This document shows positions 19,814-28,041 of a stretch of DNA of 64,000 nucleotides, piece by piece. Both the position numbers and the translations under genes were made by a program. The notes under the pieces are model-generated. The model was not told the origin of the DNA, did no database searches, and worked only from the letters and a program-made list of their open reading frames with translations. The stretch comes from Syntrophomonas sp. (GTDB taxonomy: Bacteria > Bacillota > Syntrophomonadia > Syntrophomonadales > Syntrophomonadaceae), in contig JAENZE010000016.1 of the NCBI GenBank assembly GCA_016841425.1, positions 13,354 through 77,353 of the forward strand, given 5' to 3'. Position 1 is the stretch's first letter. Each line of letters opens with the position of its first letter.

Positions 19814-20941
19814 ATGAAATCGTTTAAACATGAAAAATCAATAGCCGTGGTGATAATCTGCGCCTGGTTGATGTTGATGCAGATACCCTTGATGGCGAGT
19901 ACCGAAAGTACTTATCGGCCGATTCAACTGAATATGAATGGGCAGTATCTTTACAGTGATGCAGATCCGATAATAGTTAATGGACGTACTCTGGTTCCCC
20001 TGCGGGTTATTTCCGAAGCCAACCAGGCTGAGGTAGAGTGGGATGATAATAGCAGAACTGTTACAGTAACAAGGAGGAATGAGGCAGGGGCAGACCTGAA
20101 AATAATTATTAGCATTGATTCTGTCGAAGCTAGAATTCAAAGAGGTGTTTTGGTCCAGGAGCGGATTCTGGATGTACCAGCCCGGATAATTAACAACCGT
20201 ACCATGGTGCCGGTGAGGTTTATATGCGAAACATTAGGACTCGATGTTTACTGGGATGGGGAAAATCGGATAGTATATTTATCCCAAAACAGGGATGATT
20301 TTATACCGGCTCAGGTTGCTGCTAAAGAGATTAAATATCAAAACGAGTGGATAGACGTAAACCTGCAAATACCGATTGTGAGTGGTTTAAACCATATTGC
20401 AGTCCAGGAACTGCTGAATAATAAGCTGGAAGATGATGCGATACAGTTTAAGAATTCAATAGAGAAGGATGCTGAAGAATATTATCAAGAAGCAGCCAGT
20501 AATGAAGAATTGCATTTCTGGCCTTATTCAGCTTATACTGCTTTTAGCGTCGCATATAATAAGAATAATACGCTGAGTTTAACAGTGGATTATTATGGTT
20601 ATACCGGGGGGGCTCACGGTTATACAAGCAGGGTTGCTTATAATTACGACCTTATAAGCGGAGAAGAAATAGACTTAAGTGATCTTTTTATTGGTAGTTT
20701 TGATTTCAGATCAATATTAAATCAGGAAATAAAGCGGGAGATTCAGCAGAACCAGGATATTTATTTTGGTGAAGATATCGTATCCTTCTCCGGTATTAGA
20801 GAAGACCAGCCCTTCTATATCGATGATGATGGCATAGTGATCTACTTCGGACTATATGAGATTGCGCCTTATGCTGCAGGAATACGTGAATTTAAGATAC
20901 CATTTACTTTGCTGGAGGAAGGAATGAAATATACCCTGTAG
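19814..20941 (+). CDS. Secreted protein with copper amine oxidase N-domain and DUF4163/DUF3298 (RsiV-like) domain
   Basis: A 375-residue protein with a signal peptide (residues ~9-29), a copper-amine-oxidase N-like module (NGRTLVPLRVISEAN, NNRTMVPVRFICETLGLDV; ~35-155), then a DUF4163/DUF3298 region containing YGYTGGAHGYTSRVAYNYDL, typical of RsiV-like and PdaC-like extracellular domains. GAGGAGGAT precedes ATG 19814. It shares the stalk module with the beta-propeller protein at 15951. RsiV binds lysozyme, but this protein lacks the anti-sigma part, so its ligand is unknown. The upstream gap 19630-19813 shows no further feature. Confidence 0.85.
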   Translation: MKSFKHEKSIAVVIICAWLMLMQIPLMASTESTYRPIQLNMNGQYLYSDADPIIVNGRTLVPLRVISEANQAEVEWDDNSRTVTVTRRNEAGADLKIIISIDSVEARIQRGVLVQERILDVPARIINNRTMVPVRFICETLGLDVYWDGENRIVYLSQNRDDFIPAQVAAKEIKYQNEWIDVNLQIPIVSGLNHIAVQELLNNKLEDDAIQFKNSIEKDAEEYYQEAASNEELHFWPYSAYTAFSVAYNKNNTLSLTVDYYGYTGGAHGYTSRVAYNYDLISGEEIDLSDLFIGSFDFRSILNQEIKREIQQNQDIYFGEDIVSFSGIREDQPFYIDDDGIVIYFGLYEIAPYAAGIREFKIPFTLLEEGMKYTL

Positions 20942-21196
20942 ATTTCTAAAACCAGACATGTGAATACGCTATTGATTCCCGTCCCCTGTATCCTATTAAC
21001 AAATGGAAAATATTTAGAAAAATATCCCGAAAAAAGTAGGAAAAAAATGAAAATGTGTCTAATAACAGAGTGAAGAGGTATTTATAATCTCTTGTATACA
21101 TTTGGGTTTGCATTACGCATAGAATGGTAAAAGGCTGGAGTAGCATATGGGATTGATTATTCTGGCTTTATATAAGAGGTAGAGGAGGTATAGTTT

Positions 21197-21682
21197 ATGT
21201 ATGGTGGAGAAGGAGCCTTTCTGGCTGCAATGGGTTTTTTAGGTTTCATATGGTTCGTTGTTTTTGTGGTTTTTTATATCCTTAAGTCTCTGGGGATAAG
21301 TGCTCTGGCTACTAACCGGGGATTTGAAAATCCCTGGATGGGATGGGTACCTATAGCTGATTTGTATCTGCTAGGTATGCTGGTGGGCAGTATGGATTTA
21401 TTTGGATATAGGGTTGATAAGCTGGAGATTATACTGCCGGCAGCTATGGTAGGAGGTTCTTTGCTGGGATCGATACCGTTGCTGGGATGGTTGATAATGC
21501 TTGCTGTTATGGTATTCTTTATTATGTTTACCTATAGACTGTTTGAGATGTACAGTACTAATGCAGTTTTATACACTTTATTATCGGTACTGTTGTGCCT
21601 GTTTCCCATATTTTTATTTGTGATACGTAATAACCCGCCCTTGATGCAGACGCAAAACCCGAACAACAATCAGTACTATTAA
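21197..21682 (+). CDS. Small integral membrane protein, unknown
   Basis: A 161-residue protein with about four hydrophobic segments (roughly 8-32, 50-64, 78-105, 120-143) and a short Asn/Gln-rich tail (PNNNQYY). The motif NPWMGWVPIADLYLLG after the first segment recalls small DUF805-like or signal-peptidase-neighbour membrane proteins, but I cannot assign a family. GAGGAGGT precedes ATG 21197, and a terminator follows at 21717. The upstream 255 bp contain a half GGGGACG motif near 20980 and no gene. Confidence 0.7.
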   Translation: MYGGEGAFLAAMGFLGFIWFVVFVVFYILKSLGISALATNRGFENPWMGWVPIADLYLLGMLVGSMDLFGYRVDKLEIILPAAMVGGSLLGSIPLLGWLIMLAVMVFFIMFTYRLFEMYSTNAVLYTLLSVLLCLFPIFLFVIRNNPPLMQTQNPNNNQYY

Positions 21683-21716
21683 AATATAGCTCTGAACCAT
21701 ATACAAGTAAAGCGAT

Positions 21717-21750
21717 GGCTGCCGGTTGTGATGATCCGCAGCCTTTTCTT
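21717..21750 (+). terminator. Intrinsic terminator
   Basis: GGCTGC at 21717 pairs with GCAGCC ending at 21743, followed by TTTTCTT. It ends the small membrane protein gene. Confidence 0.75.
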
Positions 21751-21884
21751 ATGGATTAATAATGAAAAATCAGATGTTTGAATCCTGCAGCCGGGTTTTA
21801 GATAATGGCAGGGAAAAAATTTTCTTGCGAGAATTTATTAATATAGTTTGAAACTACTTGATCTGGAAAGGCAGGAGGTAGATC

Positions 21885-22139
21885 ATGGTAAGTTATAGTT
21901 TTGAGATATTGAAGGCTATGCAGATAAAGGGACATAAAATTGAAAAAACTAAAGATTATGAGGTCCAGGTACTGGTTAAAAAAGATGAAAAAACATTGTT
22001 CAATGATGTGGTAAAGGTGAGGAAAAATGTACAGGGGGTATACCCGGAAACCGAGTTGATAAATAAGAAAATTAAGTCTGCAGCGACGAAAAAGGAGCTC
22101 CTGGAAAAACTAAAGGCCTATATTAAAAAAGCTCGTTAA
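21885..22139 (+). CDS. Small basic protein, unknown
   Basis: An 84-residue, Lys-rich soluble protein starting at ATG 21885 behind a GGCAGGAGGT site. It appears alpha/beta at the N-terminus (VSYSFEILKAM...KDYEVQVLVKKD) with a helical Lys-rich C-terminus. No domain was recognised. The strong ribosome site and clean codon use support a real gene. It lies 95 bp before the hydrolase gene and may be co-transcribed with it. Confidence 0.65.
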   Translation: MVSYSFEILKAMQIKGHKIEKTKDYEVQVLVKKDEKTLFNDVVKVRKNVQGVYPETELINKKIKSAATKKELLEKLKAYIKKAR

Positions 22140-22234
22140 GGGGATTGGAATCCAGGGGAGGTTGAACTTAACACAGAGTTGATAATGAGGACAGCCGGCT
22201 TCAACAGCCGTATGCAAGCATACAGGAGCAAAGC

Positions 22235-23080
22235 ATGAAAAATGAGCTTGTCTGGGTGGAGACTGAAGACCAAATAGTACTGCATGGTGCATTATATGAA
22301 GCTGATACGAATAAACCAGCCGTTATTATTCAGCATGGAGCGGCTATGAATTTTTATACTGGTATGGGTCGATTTTTGCCAGCTATTTTAACTGAACATG
22401 GGTATACCTGTCTGAGTGCTAACAACCGGGGCCACGATTTTGGAACCGCCCCGGACAATGACAAAAAACCAGTTATAGGTTTAATGAGAGACAAATTCAA
22501 AGATTGCATTAAAGATACTCGGGCACTGGTTGCTTTTATGAGCAGCCGGGGATATAAGCAGCTGGTGCTGTTGGGCCACAGTCAGGCCATCCCCAAGATA
22601 GTATATGCCCAGAACCAGCTTCAGTTTTCTGAAGTGATAGGATTAGCACTTATAAGTCCTCCGCCATCAGTGACGGAAATGATGAGATATCTGGCTACGG
22701 ACGATTTCTATGAGCGAGGACTATTCAAAGCACGAGAATTAAGCGAATTGGGTATGGGAGAACAACTGATCGTATTGAAAGGACGGGGAACCATGCCCTG
22801 GATTTTCACGGCCAAAACCTTTTTGGATTTTTATGGGCCAGGCACTCCAGCAGATACTGAAGAACTGGTCCGGGAGGTCTGCTGTCCTATGTTGATAAGC
22901 AGGGGAAGTGAGGATTTTCCGCCTGTCAGCAAGGCTCTGATGGAGAGGATTAAGGCCAAGTCTGCTCACCCGGATAAAAGTTTTTTGGTGGAAATACCAG
23001 GTGCAGACCATTTCTATGATGGGCATGAAGAGGACCTGGGAAAAACAATCATACAATGGTTGGATCGATTAATGAATTGA
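22235..23080 (+). CDS. Alpha/beta hydrolase
   Basis: A 281-residue alpha/beta hydrolase with oxyanion HGAAMNF near residue 34, nucleophile elbow LLGHSQA (Ser116), acid in SRGSEDFPP and catalytic His in GADHFYDG. The elbow has Ala rather than Gly after Gln (GHSQA). The protein lacks a signal peptide, so it is cytoplasmic. Its length and the NNRGHDFGTAP stretch resemble DUF1749-like esterases; the substrate is unknown. AGGAG lies 6 bases before ATG 22235. Confidence 0.85.
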   Translation: MKNELVWVETEDQIVLHGALYEADTNKPAVIIQHGAAMNFYTGMGRFLPAILTEHGYTCLSANNRGHDFGTAPDNDKKPVIGLMRDKFKDCIKDTRALVAFMSSRGYKQLVLLGHSQAIPKIVYAQNQLQFSEVIGLALISPPPSVTEMMRYLATDDFYERGLFKARELSELGMGEQLIVLKGRGTMPWIFTAKTFLDFYGPGTPADTEELVREVCCPMLISRGSEDFPPVSKALMERIKAKSAHPDKSFLVEIPGADHFYDGHEEDLGKTIIQWLDRLMN

Positions 23081-23225
23081 TAGTATTAGATTAAAATACT
23101 AATGTTAATAGATAAAGTAATCTGTATCCTGGTAAAATAAATCAGGCTGCCCAACGGGATATATACCGTGAACGCTCCGGCAGTTGATAATAAACCGGTA
23201 TAGCATAAAAATGGAGGACAGGCCA

Positions 23226-23789
23226 ATGAGACGATGGAGTATAATCCTTATATGTGTACTGCTGCTAAGTGGCTTATTCGGCTGTAATCAAGATTCTGAC
23301 CGGGTTGGTCCCGACCCTGATGCGGGGACTGCCGGCCAGGATACGAAAGATGCCAGGGCCGAGAATATCCTGGCTGAGTTTAAGGCTGCTGATCTGGAGG
23401 GCAACATAATCAGCAATGAGATCTTCAGCCAATATGAGCTGACTATGATAAATATCTGGGGAACCTTTTGCGGACCATGTATCGAGGAGATGCCAGATAT
23501 TCAGAGAGTGCATGAAGCGTTCAAGGAAAAGCGGGTGCAGGTTATCGGCATTGTAGCAGACAACAAATTAATGGAGGCCAGGCAGATAACTGCTGCTCAG
23601 GGCGCAAACTACCTTAACCTGATTCCAGACCAATCACTTATGAACAATCTTATCAGTAGATTCGACTATGTGCCGGTTACGGTATTTGTTGACTCTGAAG
23701 GACGCTTATTGAATACTATAGTGAGCGGGGCCAGAGACTATGATTCTTATAGTAAGATTATTGAAGAACTGCTGGAAGGCGAAGGTTAA
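23226..23789 (+). CDS. TlpA-type thioredoxin-fold lipoprotein
   Basis: ATG 23226 is supported by GGAGG 8 bases upstream and gives a proper lipoprotein signal with lipobox LFGC (Cys20); an in-frame ATG at 23184 would precede this. The 187-residue protein carries a TlpA/ResA domain with active site WGTFCGPCIEEMP (Cys82, Cys85) and a cis-Pro region YVPVTVFVD. It is expected on the outer face of the membrane as a thiol-disulfide reductant. It is the first gene of a tight operon with the CXXC mini-protein and the polyferredoxin, which probably supplies its electrons. Confidence 0.9.
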   Translation: MRRWSIILICVLLLSGLFGCNQDSDRVGPDPDAGTAGQDTKDARAENILAEFKAADLEGNIISNEIFSQYELTMINIWGTFCGPCIEEMPDIQRVHEAFKEKRVQVIGIVADNKLMEARQITAAQGANYLNLIPDQSLMNNLISRFDYVPVTVFVDSEGRLLNTIVSGARDYDSYSKIIEELLEGEG

Positions 23790-23806
23790 TACTTGGGGAG
23801 AGTCTG

Positions 23807-23944
23807 ATGAATAAAAAACGATTAAGAATAATCCTGCTGGCGGGAGGCACTGTTTTAATAATACTAGGGTCAGCTTTAGATGAGGCAGCCAGCGTATATG
23901 CAAAAGCGGCCAGGATTTGCCTGGAATGTATAGGAATTGGTTGA
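23807..23944 (+). CDS. CD1871A-type CXXC mini-protein
   Basis: A 45-residue frame from ATG 23807 to TGA 23942-23944 with GGGGAG 6 bases upstream. It has a basic start, one membrane segment (residues ~7-22) and a conserved tail ARICLECIGIG with Cys38 and Cys41. This is the CD1871A family of tiny clostridial CXXC proteins. It lies 17 bp after tlpA, and its stop overlaps the next start (TGATG). The fixed position between TlpA and the polyferredoxin suggests an electron-relay or assembly role; the family has no established function that I know of. Confidence 0.85.
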   Translation: MNKKRLRIILLAGGTVLIILGSALDEAASVYAKAARICLECIGIG

Positions 23945-24786
23945 TGAACAGGAAACTTGTACAGTACATAAGCGCCTTGCTGTCCAATGCCAATCTAAAC
24001 GGTTTTCTATCAGGCCGCATATATCAGGGGGCCAGCAAACATGTTTGTGTGCCGGGCTTGAACTGCTATTCCTGCCCGGCTGCTATAGGCGCCTGCCCTT
24101 TAGGGTCTTTACAGACCATTCTGGCCAGCAGTCAATACACGATTTCCTATTATGTTACTGGAACCCTGCTTCTCTTTGGGGTCTTTATGGGCAGGTTTAT
24201 TTGCGGATGGTTATGTCCGTTTGGACTGATACAGGAGCTATTAAATAAACTGCCTTCACTCACCTTGATCATACCTCGCTGGGCCGGATATATTAAATAT
24301 TTAATATTAATTATTTTTGTTTTGTTATTACCTGTGTTTTTCGTAAACAGTCTGGGGATGGGAGATCCTTCTTTTTGTAAGTATATATGTCCAGCTGGAA
24401 CCCTGGAAGGAGGTATTCCTCTGCTGGCCAGCCACCAAGATTTAAGAGATGCAGCCGGCAGCCTGTTTCTAATTAAATTGCTGATATTGATAATGGTGGT
24501 AATTTTCTCTGTTATATCATTTCGTCCCTTCTGTAAAATTATCTGCCCGTTGGGCGCAATATATGGTCTCTTCAATCCTATAAGCATGTATAGATTTCAG
24601 GTAGACCCTGTTAAATGCATCGGCTGTGGTACCTGTGCCCAGAATTGCAAAATGGGTGTAGCTATGTATAAAGAACCTGACAGCTGGGAATGTATTCGCT
24701 GTGGAGATTGCCGTACAGGATGTCCCGCAGGTGCTATTACTACTACATTTCAGATTGGTAATGAACCAATAAAGAATACTAATTAA
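23944..24786 (+). CDS. NapH/NosR-like membrane polyferredoxin
   Basis: ATG 23944 overlaps the stop of the mini-protein; an in-frame start at 23917 is less likely. The 280-residue protein has an N-terminal Cys cluster (Cys35, 41, 44, 51), about four membrane segments, CGWLCP (88, 91), CKYICP (145, 149), CKIICP (197, 201), and two [4Fe-4S] motifs CIGCGTCAQNC and CIRCGDCRTGC near the C-terminus. This is the NapH/NosR/CcoG-type quinol-linked or membrane electron-transfer layout. It probably passes electrons from the cytoplasm to the TlpA lipoprotein. A terminator follows at 24810. Confidence 0.9.
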   Translation: MNRKLVQYISALLSNANLNGFLSGRIYQGASKHVCVPGLNCYSCPAAIGACPLGSLQTILASSQYTISYYVTGTLLLFGVFMGRFICGWLCPFGLIQELLNKLPSLTLIIPRWAGYIKYLILIIFVLLLPVFFVNSLGMGDPSFCKYICPAGTLEGGIPLLASHQDLRDAAGSLFLIKLLILIMVVIFSVISFRPFCKIICPLGAIYGLFNPISMYRFQVDPVKCIGCGTCAQNCKMGVAMYKEPDSWECIRCGDCRTGCPAGAITTTFQIGNEPIKNTN

Positions 24787-24809
24787 AAATATTATTTTAG
24801 ATAATCCAT

Positions 24810-24847
24810 AAAGACTTTTGCATTTTTGCCAATAGTCTTTTTTTTTA
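24810..24847 (+). terminator. Intrinsic terminator of the TlpA/polyferredoxin operon
   Basis: AAAGACT (24810-24816) pairs with AGTCTTT (24834-24840), followed by a run of T to 24846. Confidence 0.8.
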
Positions 24848-24889
24848 TGCCTGGGTGCAATATTGGATATTGGGTTGGTATTGAGCCAG

Positions 24890-24913
24890 GTTTTTGGCGT
24901 TAACGCCAAAAAC
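24890..24913. promoter_or_regulatory. 24-bp perfect palindrome, candidate activator site
   Basis: GTTTTTGGCGTT followed by AACGCCAAAAAC is perfectly self-complementary. No U tract follows on either strand, so it is not a terminator. Its centre is about 108 bp upstream of the start expected from the sigma-54 promoter at 24983-24998, the usual position for an enhancer-binding-protein dimer. Binding by the activator encoded at 31343 is inference. Bases 24914-24982 and 24999-25122 show nothing else. Confidence 0.6.
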
Positions 24914-24982
24914 AAAAAAAGGCAGATGAATTCCCATACACAGGTATGCCGAAAATCTTGAATCGCCGGCCATAAGATGAAG

Positions 24983-24998
24983 TGGCACGAATATTGCT
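24983..24998 (+). promoter_or_regulatory. hbd: Sigma-54 (-24/-12) promoter of the beta-oxidation cluster
   Basis: TGGCACGAATATTGCT matches the RpoN consensus TGGCACGNNNNTTGCW at every defined position. It lies 125 bp upstream of hbd, the first gene of the cluster, downstream of the palindrome at 24890. A sigma-54-dependent activator gene closes the cluster. Confidence 0.88.
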
Positions 24999-25122
24999 AG
25001 TATATGGCAATAGGGCTTTAAAAGAAAGGAGGTCAGCGATATCAGAGCCCGGGAGTAAAAACTTGTATTGCTGATTACGGTGTTAATGGGGTTTATTAAT
25101 ATTTGAGGGGGAGGTAGAATCG

Positions 25123-25977
25123 ATGGATATTAACAAGGTTGGGGTTCTCGGTGCAGGTACCATGGGAGCCGGAATTGCTCAGGTGGGCATTGAAGCCGGG
25201 TTTCCAGTGGTGCTGATTGATATTGAATCCACAGTTCTGGCTAAAGCAGTTAAAGGATTGGACAAAGCCTGGCAGAAAGCTGTAGATAAAGGAAAATTGA
25301 CTGAAGAAGGTAAACATAAATGGCAGTCTCTATTAACCACCAGTGGGGACTTGAAGGATTTTGCAGATTGTGATGTGGTCATCGAAGCAATTGTAGAGAA
25401 TATGGACATCAAGAAAAAAGTATTTCAGCAGTTAGACGATATCTGCCCGGCACATACCATTCTGGCATCTAATACCTCTGCACTCAGCATTACCGAGATA
25501 GCATCTTCAACTAAGCGAGCTGATAAGATTGTGGGTATGCATTTCTTTAATCCAGTTCCAGTCATGAAATTAGTCGAGGTTATTCCGGGAGCGGAAACTA
25601 CTGATGAGGCAGCTGCAGCGGTGATGGAATTGTGCTTCAAAATAAAAAAGGAACCAGTAAAAGCCAAGGAAGTTCCAGGTTTCATAGTAAACCGGCTGCT
25701 GGTCCCTTATTTAAATGAGGCTGCCTTCGCCTATCAGGAAGGGGTGGCAAGTGCCGAAGAAATTGATAAGGCTATGAAGCTGGGGGCTAATATGCCTATC
25801 GGACCGTTAGCCCTATGCGATATGGTAGGTATCGATGTGCTCCTCTCGGTCTGTGAATACTACTGGCGTGAATTCGGAGATTCCAAATACCGTCCCTCCC
25901 TGGCCTTAAAATCGAAATGCCGGGCCGGACACCTGGGTATAAAAACTGGAAAGGGATTCTACGATTATACCAAGTAA
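25123..25977 (+). CDS. hbd: 3-hydroxybutyryl-CoA dehydrogenase
   Basis: A 284-residue NAD(P)-dependent dehydrogenase with Rossmann motif VGVLGAGTMGAGIAQ (residues ~6-20), the catalytic His in GMHFFNPVPVMKLVEVI, and a C-terminal dimerisation domain ending GIKTGKGFYDY. It oxidises (S)-3-hydroxybutyryl-CoA to acetoacetyl-CoA, the step after hydration in butyrate oxidation, in the cytoplasm. GGGGGAGGT precedes ATG 25123. It is the first gene behind the sigma-54 promoter and is 14 bp from the crotonase gene, so the two are co-transcribed. Confidence 0.96.
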   Translation: MDINKVGVLGAGTMGAGIAQVGIEAGFPVVLIDIESTVLAKAVKGLDKAWQKAVDKGKLTEEGKHKWQSLLTTSGDLKDFADCDVVIEAIVENMDIKKKVFQQLDDICPAHTILASNTSALSITEIASSTKRADKIVGMHFFNPVPVMKLVEVIPGAETTDEAAAAVMELCFKIKKEPVKAKEVPGFIVNRLLVPYLNEAAFAYQEGVASAEEIDKAMKLGANMPIGPLALCDMVGIDVLLSVCEYYWREFGDSKYRPSLALKSKCRAGHLGIKTGKGFYDYTK

Positions 25978-25991
25978 AAGGGGAGGTTTAT

Positions 25992-26771
25992 ATGGATTTT
26001 AAGACGCTGCTTTTTGACAAAGAAGATGGTCTAGGGACCATAACTTTGAACCGACCACAATCGTTTAACGGCTTGAATGATGAATTGTTAGAAGAATTAT
26101 CACTGCTGATGGATGAAATAACCCGTGATGATGAAATTAGAGCCGTTATCCTGACCGGAGGCAGTGAGGTATTTGCTGCCGGGGGAGATATAGCTTACAT
26201 AGCGTCTCTGGATACCCTGGGTGCTGCTAAATTTGTTGCTTTAGCCCAGGAAGCGATGGATAAGATAGAAAATCTCGACAAACCGGTGATAGCTGCTATT
26301 AATGGTTTGGCCCTGGGGGGAGGCTGTGAGCTTGCACTGGCAGCAGATGTCAGGTTAGCTTCAGAAGGTTCTGTTTTTGGTCTGCCGGAAATAAACCTGG
26401 GGATTATCCCCGGGGCGGGTGGTACCCAGAGACTGGCCAGGACGGTAGGTCCGGGTTGGGCTAAATACCTGATTTATACTGGGGAAAACGTAGACACAGA
26501 TCAGGCGTTAAAAATTGGTCTCATAAACAAAGTGTTTTCCAAAGATATGCTGATGGAAGAAGCCCGTAAGCTGGGTAAAAAACTTGGTTCCAAGGCTCCT
26601 ATTGCCCTTAAAACGGCTAAAAAGTGTATCAACTATGGGGGCAGTGTAGATCTGGCATCAGGACTGCTATTTGAACAAAAATCATGGGCTCTGTTGTTTG
26701 CAACCGAAGACCAAAAGGAAGGATTTAATGCCTTTTTAGAAAAGAGAAAACCAGGTTTTACTGGAAGGTAA
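25992..26771 (+). CDS. crt: Crotonase (enoyl-CoA hydratase)
   Basis: ATG 25992 follows GGGGAGGT; upstream in-frame codons belong to the end of hbd. The 259-residue protein has the crotonase oxyanion hole (AAGGDIAYI and NGLALGGGCELALAAD) and both catalytic glutamates, in GGGCE and in LPEINLGIIPGAGG. It hydrates crotonyl-CoA to 3-hydroxybutyryl-CoA. The order hbd-crt-acd matches a compact beta-oxidation unit. Substrate range beyond C4 cannot be read from sequence. Confidence 0.95.
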   Translation: MDFKTLLFDKEDGLGTITLNRPQSFNGLNDELLEELSLLMDEITRDDEIRAVILTGGSEVFAAGGDIAYIASLDTLGAAKFVALAQEAMDKIENLDKPVIAAINGLALGGGCELALAADVRLASEGSVFGLPEINLGIIPGAGGTQRLARTVGPGWAKYLIYTGENVDTDQALKIGLINKVFSKDMLMEEARKLGKKLGSKAPIALKTAKKCINYGGSVDLASGLLFEQKSWALLFATEDQKEGFNAFLEKRKPGFTGR

Positions 26772-26901
26772 TTGGATAAATAGAATCCCTGCCAGTTGCC
26801 TGATATAGAAGGAGTAGAGGAAGTTGGAAGAGGAATAACCATGGCTTCGTTATGGAGCCGAGGTATATATATTATAAATTTATTTTGAAGGAGGAGTATA
26901 C

Positions 26902-28041
26902 ATGGATTTTCGCTTAACTGAGGAACAAGAGATGATCCGGAAAATGGCCAGGGACTTTGCAGATAATGAGGTGCTGCCCTACTGTCAGCAGTGGGATGAA
27001 GAACACATATTCCCCTGGGACACGGTTAAAAAGCTGCAGGAACTGGGATTGATGACCTGCGGGGTACCGGCTGAATATGGTGGACCAGGAATTGATCATC
27101 TGGGACAATGCATCATAGCAGAAGAAATCAGTCGTGGTGATGCAGGTCTGGCAACTACCCTGGCCGCCAGTACTCTCCTGGGGCCTGATCCGGTATATAT
27201 TGCTGCTACCGATGAGCAAAAGAAATGGTGGTATGGCCGGATGCTGGAAGGTGCGATAACCGCATTTTGTCTGACTGAGCCAGGTGCTGGGTCTGATGCA
27301 GGAGGACTGTCTACCCGCTGCGTTAAAGATGGTGATGATTATATTCTGAATGGCACCAAACAGTTCATAAGCAACGGAGGAGTTGCTCAGCTGTATACAG
27401 TTTTTACGACATTGGATAAAAAATTAGGATACAAAGGTATGTGCAGCTTTATGGTAGACCGTGATACTCCCGGCATAAGTATCAGTAAGCCGGAGAATAA
27501 AATGGGAATAAGGAGTTCCAATACCACCCAGGTAATATTTGAAGATGTACGGGTACCCGCCCGCAATCTGCTGGGTAAAGAAGGAGATGGCATGAAAATA
27601 GCGATGAAGACCCTGGATATATCCCGGGCAGTAGTCGCAGCCATGGCCGTAGGAATAGCCCAGGGAGCGTTTGAATGTGCTGTACAATATGCTAAGGAAA
27701 GACAGCAGTTCGGAAAGCCTATTGCCAGTTTTCAAGCTGTACAGTTTATGCTGGCAGAAATGTCAGTTATGGTTGAAACAGCTCGCCTCTTGTACCAGAA
27801 AGCCGCTAATAATCAGGATATGGGTCTACCTTATACCCGCGAGGCCTCCCTGGCTAAATACTGGGGTGGTGAGGCAGCCATGAAGGTAAGCTTGAATGCG
27901 GTTCAGGTCCATGGAGGATATGGATATACCAAGGAGTATATGGTAGAGAAATATATGCGTGATGCCAAAATATTCCAGATATTTGAGGGTACAGCTGAAG
28001 TTCAGAAGCTGGTAATAGCCGGTGATGTTCTTCGTGCTTAA
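26902..28041 (+). CDS. Short-chain acyl-CoA dehydrogenase (butyryl-CoA dehydrogenase-like)
   Basis: A 379-residue FAD enzyme of typical length. The FAD-binding stretch CLTEPGAGSDAGG is at ~residue 126 and the catalytic Glu is in IFEGTAEVQKLVIAGDVLR near the C-terminus. It oxidises butyryl-CoA or a similar acyl-CoA to the enoyl-CoA; in syntrophs electrons go to EtfAB and onward to hydrogen or formate. No etf genes lie in the window. AAGGAGGAG precedes ATG 26902. It is 130 bp after crt in the same direction, within the sigma-54-led cluster. Confidence 0.95.
   Translation: MDFRLTEEQEMIRKMARDFADNEVLPYCQQWDEEHIFPWDTVKKLQELGLMTCGVPAEYGGPGIDHLGQCIIAEEISRGDAGLATTLAASTLLGPDPVYIAATDEQKKWWYGRMLEGAITAFCLTEPGAGSDAGGLSTRCVKDGDDYILNGTKQFISNGGVAQLYTVFTTLDKKLGYKGMCSFMVDRDTPGISISKPENKMGIRSSNTTQVIFEDVRVPARNLLGKEGDGMKIAMKTLDISRAVVAAMAVGIAQGAFECAVQYAKERQQFGKPIASFQAVQFMLAEMSVMVETARLLYQKAANNQDMGLPYTREASLAKYWGGEAAMKVSLNAVQVHGGYGYTKEYMVEKYMRDAKIFQIFEGTAEVQKLVIAGDVLRA

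Follow-up and report, generated by a model that had tools for sequence, protein, structure and literature searches.

Reducing power is carried across the membrane to thioredoxin-like lipoproteins of the ResA/TlpA type by CcdA/DsbD, in which Cys pairs are exchanged with cytoplasmic thioredoxin. In ferredoxin:thioredoxin reductase, a [4Fe-4S] centre feeds the dithiol of thioredoxin, which allows one-electron transfer to be converted to two-electron transfer. Membrane Fe-S proteins of the NapH/MauN type (TIGR02163) carry CX3CP motifs flanking the membrane spans and a 2[4Fe-4S] C-terminal domain. The NapH-like flavinylation systems, which include a multi-span Fer4_5 (PF12801) Fe-S protein, were proposed to move electrons across the membrane on Fe-S clusters to flavin as the extracytosolic acceptor (Meheust et al. 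2021; PMC8238504). A further family, CD1871A_fam (NCBIfam NF040920), consists of small proteins named so far only for their motif. No experimental paper on this family was found in the literature search, and NF040920 is absent from a recent selenoproteome review which includes UxxC thiol-disulfide-isomerase-like, Redoxin and TlpA-type families (PMC13188914).

The locus described here, a trio of genes in the window (the whole 64,000-nucleotide stretch of Syntrophomonas sp. DNA that was analysed), can be compared with each of these. It resembles the flavinylation systems in its membrane Fe-S protein and in the proposed delivery of electrons to an extracytosolic acceptor; however, electrons in the trio would be accepted by a small protein with a thiol pair, together with TlpA. 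The proposed task is that of CcdA/DsbD, but the trio is without DsbD_TM and would use predicted Fe-S clusters instead of Cys-pair exchange. The NapH/MauN motifs and C-terminal domain are present, whereas six additional conserved outer Cys distinguish the membrane protein of the trio. Unlike ferredoxin:thioredoxin reductase, to which no sequence match was seen, the chemistry would sit on the outside of the membrane. The small protein of the trio is a member of CD1871A_fam, and through it the family is now linked with TlpA and a membrane Fe-S protein. The literature search did not find a paper on the trio.

The three genes and their products

The trio lies head to tail on one strand at positions 23226-24786 and consists of genes for a TlpA-type lipoprotein, a mini-protein and a membrane Fe-S protein (Table 1). 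The earlier note had described three coupled genes with a stop-start overlap of the last two, and this layout was borne out in coordinates, sizes and motifs; the ATG of the membrane protein gene at 23944 takes its A from the stop codon of the mini-protein gene. The terminator scan called none, and the candidate in Table 1 falls under the G-C threshold of that scan. Translation of the surrounding ORFs revealed an alpha/beta-hydrolase-like product 5' of the trio and products like 3-hydroxyacyl-CoA dehydrogenase, crotonase and acyl-CoA dehydrogenase 3' of it. These hydrolase-like and acyl-CoA-type genes are given no role in the relay that may be proposed for the trio.

Table 1. Features of the trio and its borders, in window positions
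Feature	Position	Strand	Basis
TlpA/ResA-type thiol-disulfide lipoprotein, 187 aa, CGPC active site	23226..23789	+	Pfam, NCBIfam, phmmer, sequence
Mini-protein, 45 aa, single span, end CLECIGIG	23807..23944	+	NF040920, homologue conservation, flank charge
NapH-like membrane polyferredoxin, 280 aa, 18 Cys	23944..24786	+	Fer4_5/Fer4, Cys conservation, AlphaFold2, ferredoxin alignment
Stop-start overlap TGATG, mini-protein/membrane protein	23942..23946	+	direct reading
Shine-Dalgarno-like GGAGG ahead of the TlpA start	23213..23217	+	direct reading
Possible weak intrinsic terminator, AAAGACT...AGTCTTT then T-run	24810..24846	+	direct reading

The TlpA-type gene runs from an ATG to the end of its stop codon over the interval listed, the active site reads WGTFCGPC, and a signal peptide with the lipobox-like end LFGC could be read from the sequence. 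Both AhpC-TSA (46 bits) and Redoxin (44 bits) were found over the cut-off in Pfam, and the best NCBIfam model was the ResA-type PRK03147 (NF002854) with 53 bits, its cut-off of 170 not being reached. ResA structures were matched using phmmer (7.7e-10), and the solved relatives were ResA and thiol-disulfide oxidoreductases. As judged from the thioredoxin-like fold, the CXXC motif and the export signal, the product is a thiol-disulfide lipoprotein of the ResA/TlpA kind.

The mini-protein has one hydrophobic span and ends in ICLECIGIG, in which the Cys are Cys38 and Cys41. It matched NF040920 over model positions 1-38 of 38 with 46.8 bits (cut-off 32), and no match was found in Pfam. The claim that it has no nameable function stood in part, since the family does have a name, but it is described there only as 'CXXC motif-containing' and uncharacterised. 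Residues G21, E26, C38, L39, C41 and G43 were invariant across 14 homologues. In 102 of 115 homologues, the N flank of the span carried more positive charge than the C flank, and the reverse was never observed; because positive charge favours the N flank, the CLEC motif is placed outside (N-in/C-out), and Cys38 and Cys41 are predicted to lie there. The family is expanded in one clostridial genome (G496), which gave five CD1871A_fam matches. A divergent branch (L021, L120, L125, L121, L123, L124) carries the mini-protein motif CLSCIGIQ or similar, and in the membrane proteins of the same six loci C35 has moved by 1-2 residues and C145 is lost in three.

Pfam analysis of the membrane protein revealed Fer4_5 (PF12801) with 63.1 bits over three stretches, together with Fer4 matches, and the NapH/MauN model TIGR02163 scored 53.4 bits, its cut-off of 213 not being reached. 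So far as its sequence tells, it is a NapH-like membrane Fe-S protein in the wide sense of PMC8238504. Three long hydrophobic segments are present, with model helices at 69-82, 112-132 and 173-191. Sixteen of the 18 Cys were invariant over 105 homologues, and the other two were nearly so (C35 in 99, C145 in 102). The AlphaFold2 model built on the alignment reached a pLDDT of 93.6 and a pTM of 0.89. Residues 211-274 align to bacterial-type ferredoxins as a C-terminal 2[4Fe-4S] domain, and sequence and fold searches of the PDB returned matches to this domain only. A separate model of the membrane part (pLDDT 75) gave no significant fold match, which is not proof of a new fold. Based on the span count and on the ferredoxin domain being expected inside, 12 Cys are predicted to lie inside and six outside. 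The outer set comprises C35, C41, C44, C51, C145 and C149, and the inner set comprises the CX3CP pairs C87/C91 and C197/C201 and the eight ferredoxin Cys.

Recurrence of the gene set and apparent selenocysteine in its members

A scan of named genomes provided 80 polyferredoxin loci (L022-L101). They match the query most closely, so the counts below apply to this subfamily. The loci belong mostly to Clostridia, with Treponema, another member of the Spirochaetia and a Synergistaceae MAG. To locate neighbours, all six frames were searched with home-made HMMs, UGA being read through. Of the 80 membrane protein genes, 75 have the mini-protein at most 300 bp upstream and 66 have a TlpA-type gene no further than 2.5 kb away. 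The order TlpA, mini-protein, membrane protein occurred in 46 loci and the order mini-protein, membrane protein, TlpA in 15, with other orders besides; 13 loci had the mini-protein and the membrane protein with no TlpA-type gene detected within 2.5 kb. In an independent phylum sample of 249 genomes, all 33 genomes with the mini-protein also had the membrane protein, and in 32 of them the two genes are same-strand neighbours no more than 1 kb apart. The exception, G025 (L015:4873-6204), has a reverse-transcriptase ORF of the group II intron type between them.

The trio is not a product of chance, given the scores for NF040920 (46.8 bits) and Fer4_5 (63 bits) and the recurrence of the gene set in dozens of genomes, and these genome comparisons support its reading as one conserved unit. 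The conserved order for which a survey had been advised was recovered in the recurrence of the trio, but not in the placement of TlpA, which lies upstream or downstream and is missing nearby at the 13 loci. The commonest neighbour, as seen from sequence, was a sensor-kinase-like cluster (24 of 80 loci). MsrA/MsrB, as neighbours that could name a substrate, were not recognised by eye among the recurrent clusters of the 80 loci. A natural fusion of the mini-protein and the membrane protein was considered and rejected, as the stop codon bridged by the one in-frame case (L065) is most likely genuine.

Twenty loci (L002, L007, L015-L020, L025, L045, L106, L108-L112, L114-L116, L118) have a TlpA partner in whose active site an in-frame UGA (selenocysteine) takes the place of the first Cys (UxxC). 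A short hairpin, with GCTGCAGTTGCAGC as its commonest form, follows 3' of the UGA at a similar distance in most of them, and all 17 trio genomes examined for SelB scored above its cut-off. The UGA-bearing partners are thus apparently exported selenoproteins. The mini-protein of Clostridium tepidiprofundi (L026:3822-3953) likewise reads ULEC, with UGA at its first Cys and a 6-bp hairpin with a GGGT loop 3' of it, in a genome where SelB is present. None of the other mini-proteins in the sample of its order has UGA, so this case may be a mutation or a sequencing error. Since UGA is found at the first Cys of TlpA in 20 loci and of one mini-protein, both partners look like redox proteins.

Distribution of the trio and of CcdA

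CcdA was called by DsbD_TM (PF02683) over the family cut-off; no match was found in the trio proteins or anywhere in the window genome. Among relatives, CcdA was present in 3 of the 14 genomes with the trio and 36 of the 47 without it (Fisher p=3e-4, indicative only, since the genomes are related and the independence is overstated). The same tendency could be observed within the family of the window (2/10 vs 21/27; p=0.002) and in the phylum sample (12/33 vs 161/216; p=2e-5), again among related genomes, and an absence of CcdA can also stem from an incomplete assembly. The matches in the three trio-positive relatives were two full-length CcdA-like proteins and one weak match in a longer frame. 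In the genus of the window, G000 and G003 have the trio with CcdA not over the cut-off, G002 and G004 have CcdA and no trio, and G001 has both. In genus g11, the trio is found only in G014 and CcdA only in G032.

The anti-correlation with ccdA that the earlier note had suggested looking for was therefore found at three taxonomic scales. Its suggestion that the trio may replace CcdA/DsbD gains from this; however, replacement is not strict, because about a third of trio genomes (11-12 of 33 in the phylum sample) keep a CcdA-type protein. The idea of the trio as an alternative to CcdA has real statistical support, within the limits of shared hosts and genome kinship.

A proposed electron relay and its alternatives

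In three genomes (G009, G025, G044), a membrane protein gene, either the second in the genome or the sole one, occurs without the mini-protein or TlpA (L126, L127, L128). These paralogues adjoin FMN-binding-type, ApbE-type and other proteins, identified by reading with no profile scan, and they retain the six outer Cys, which are thus not specific to the thiol branch. Beside the trio itself, no ApbE or FMN-binding domain was seen by eye among the ORFs of 20000-28000 or among the recurrent neighbour clusters of the 80 loci; the combination of ApbE and FMN-binding domain that marks a flavinylation system was not found there. Since the setting of the paralogues matches NapH-like flavinylation, the trio appears to use the same conduit, with flavin replaced by a thiol acceptor; it would best be read as a NapH-like Fe-S path that delivers electrons to a thiol or selenol.

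It is fairly probable that the trio works as a transmembrane electron relay reducing the extracytoplasmic thioredoxin-like lipoprotein, with Fe-S clusters doing CcdA-like work. Electrons would enter the NapH-like protein at its C-terminal 2[4Fe-4S] domain, from a low-potential donor in the cytoplasm which is most likely ferredoxin. In the presumed order of carriers, electrons would then pass to an inner-side membrane cluster of C87, C91, C197 and C201, and next to an outer cluster of C35-C51 and C145/C149. The CLEC dithiol of the mini-protein, lying beside the outer cluster, would accept them outside, and the dithiol would be handed on to the CGPC (or UxxC) site of TlpA. Reduced TlpA may finally resolve disulfides on exported proteins, its presumed substrates. 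Flow would run from inside to outside, since typical thiol potentials are too high for reducing ferredoxin. Of the complete path from ferredoxin through membrane Fe-S to an outer thioredoxin domain that had been claimed earlier, the anatomy gives the route, but we only infer the ferredoxin donor, the direction of flow and a TlpA kept reduced.

Tentatively, the outer face may hold an Fe-S/dithiol centre like that of ferredoxin:thioredoxin reductase, in which the six outer Cys (four ligands and two redox) together with CLEC would make dithiols from single electrons; the trio would then be a ferredoxin-driven alternative to CcdA/DsbD in many anaerobes. A rather unlikely alternative is that the mini-protein is a structural subunit, its CXXC completing with two outer Cys a second outer [4Fe-4S] cluster which reduces TlpA directly. 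Six and two outer Cys make eight, sufficient for two clusters, and the mini-protein is nearly always adjacent to the membrane protein, including at the 13 loci without nearby TlpA. However, the paralogues without a nearby mini-protein keep all six outer Cys, which disfavours the mini-protein as a needed ligand, and one mini-protein, although the sole example, has UGA at its first Cys, which would be unexpected in a cluster ligand.

The best Pfam families of the lipoprotein (AhpC-TSA and Redoxin), the largely anaerobic hosts and the active-site UGA of relatives would suit a thiol/selenol peroxidase or repair enzyme, with the relay as an oxidative-stress defence. This is improbable, as the CXXC/UXXC active site is like that of ResA/TlpA, and the solved relatives also point that way.

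A service to cytochrome c maturation specifically, in which the trio replaces CcdA-ResA for the haem-binding thiols of apocytochromes, appears more doubtful still. ResB was present in 12 of 14 trio-positive against 23 of 47 trio-negative close relatives, ResB-positive genomes without CcdA often carry the trio, and ResA-type models score best for the TlpA partner. In the phylum sample, however, the enrichment is gone (8/33 trio genomes vs 66/216 others) and most hosts show no sign of the system. A general link to cytochrome c maturation was thus rejected, and the data are better matched by a reductant of extracytoplasmic thiols in general than by one reserved for cytochromes. The idea that the trio is the counterpart to oxidative folding by VKOR was likewise rejected, with VKOR in 1 of 61 relatives. 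Co-transcription of neighbours without a common pathway, with TlpA reduced by other donors, would suit the variable position and occasional absence of nearby TlpA but is very improbable, as the three families recur in either order across Clostridia, Treponema and Synergistaceae, with linked selenocysteine use and anti-correlation with CcdA.

The known systems leave unexplained how anaerobes lacking CcdA/DsbD hold exported thiol proteins reduced, and the trio is a concrete candidate for this task. It offers named genes and hosts in which the trio and CcdA occur reciprocally, even inside one genus. The proposed relay would give the small-protein family CD1871A_fam a role, and it would tie exported selenoproteins to a specific electron source.
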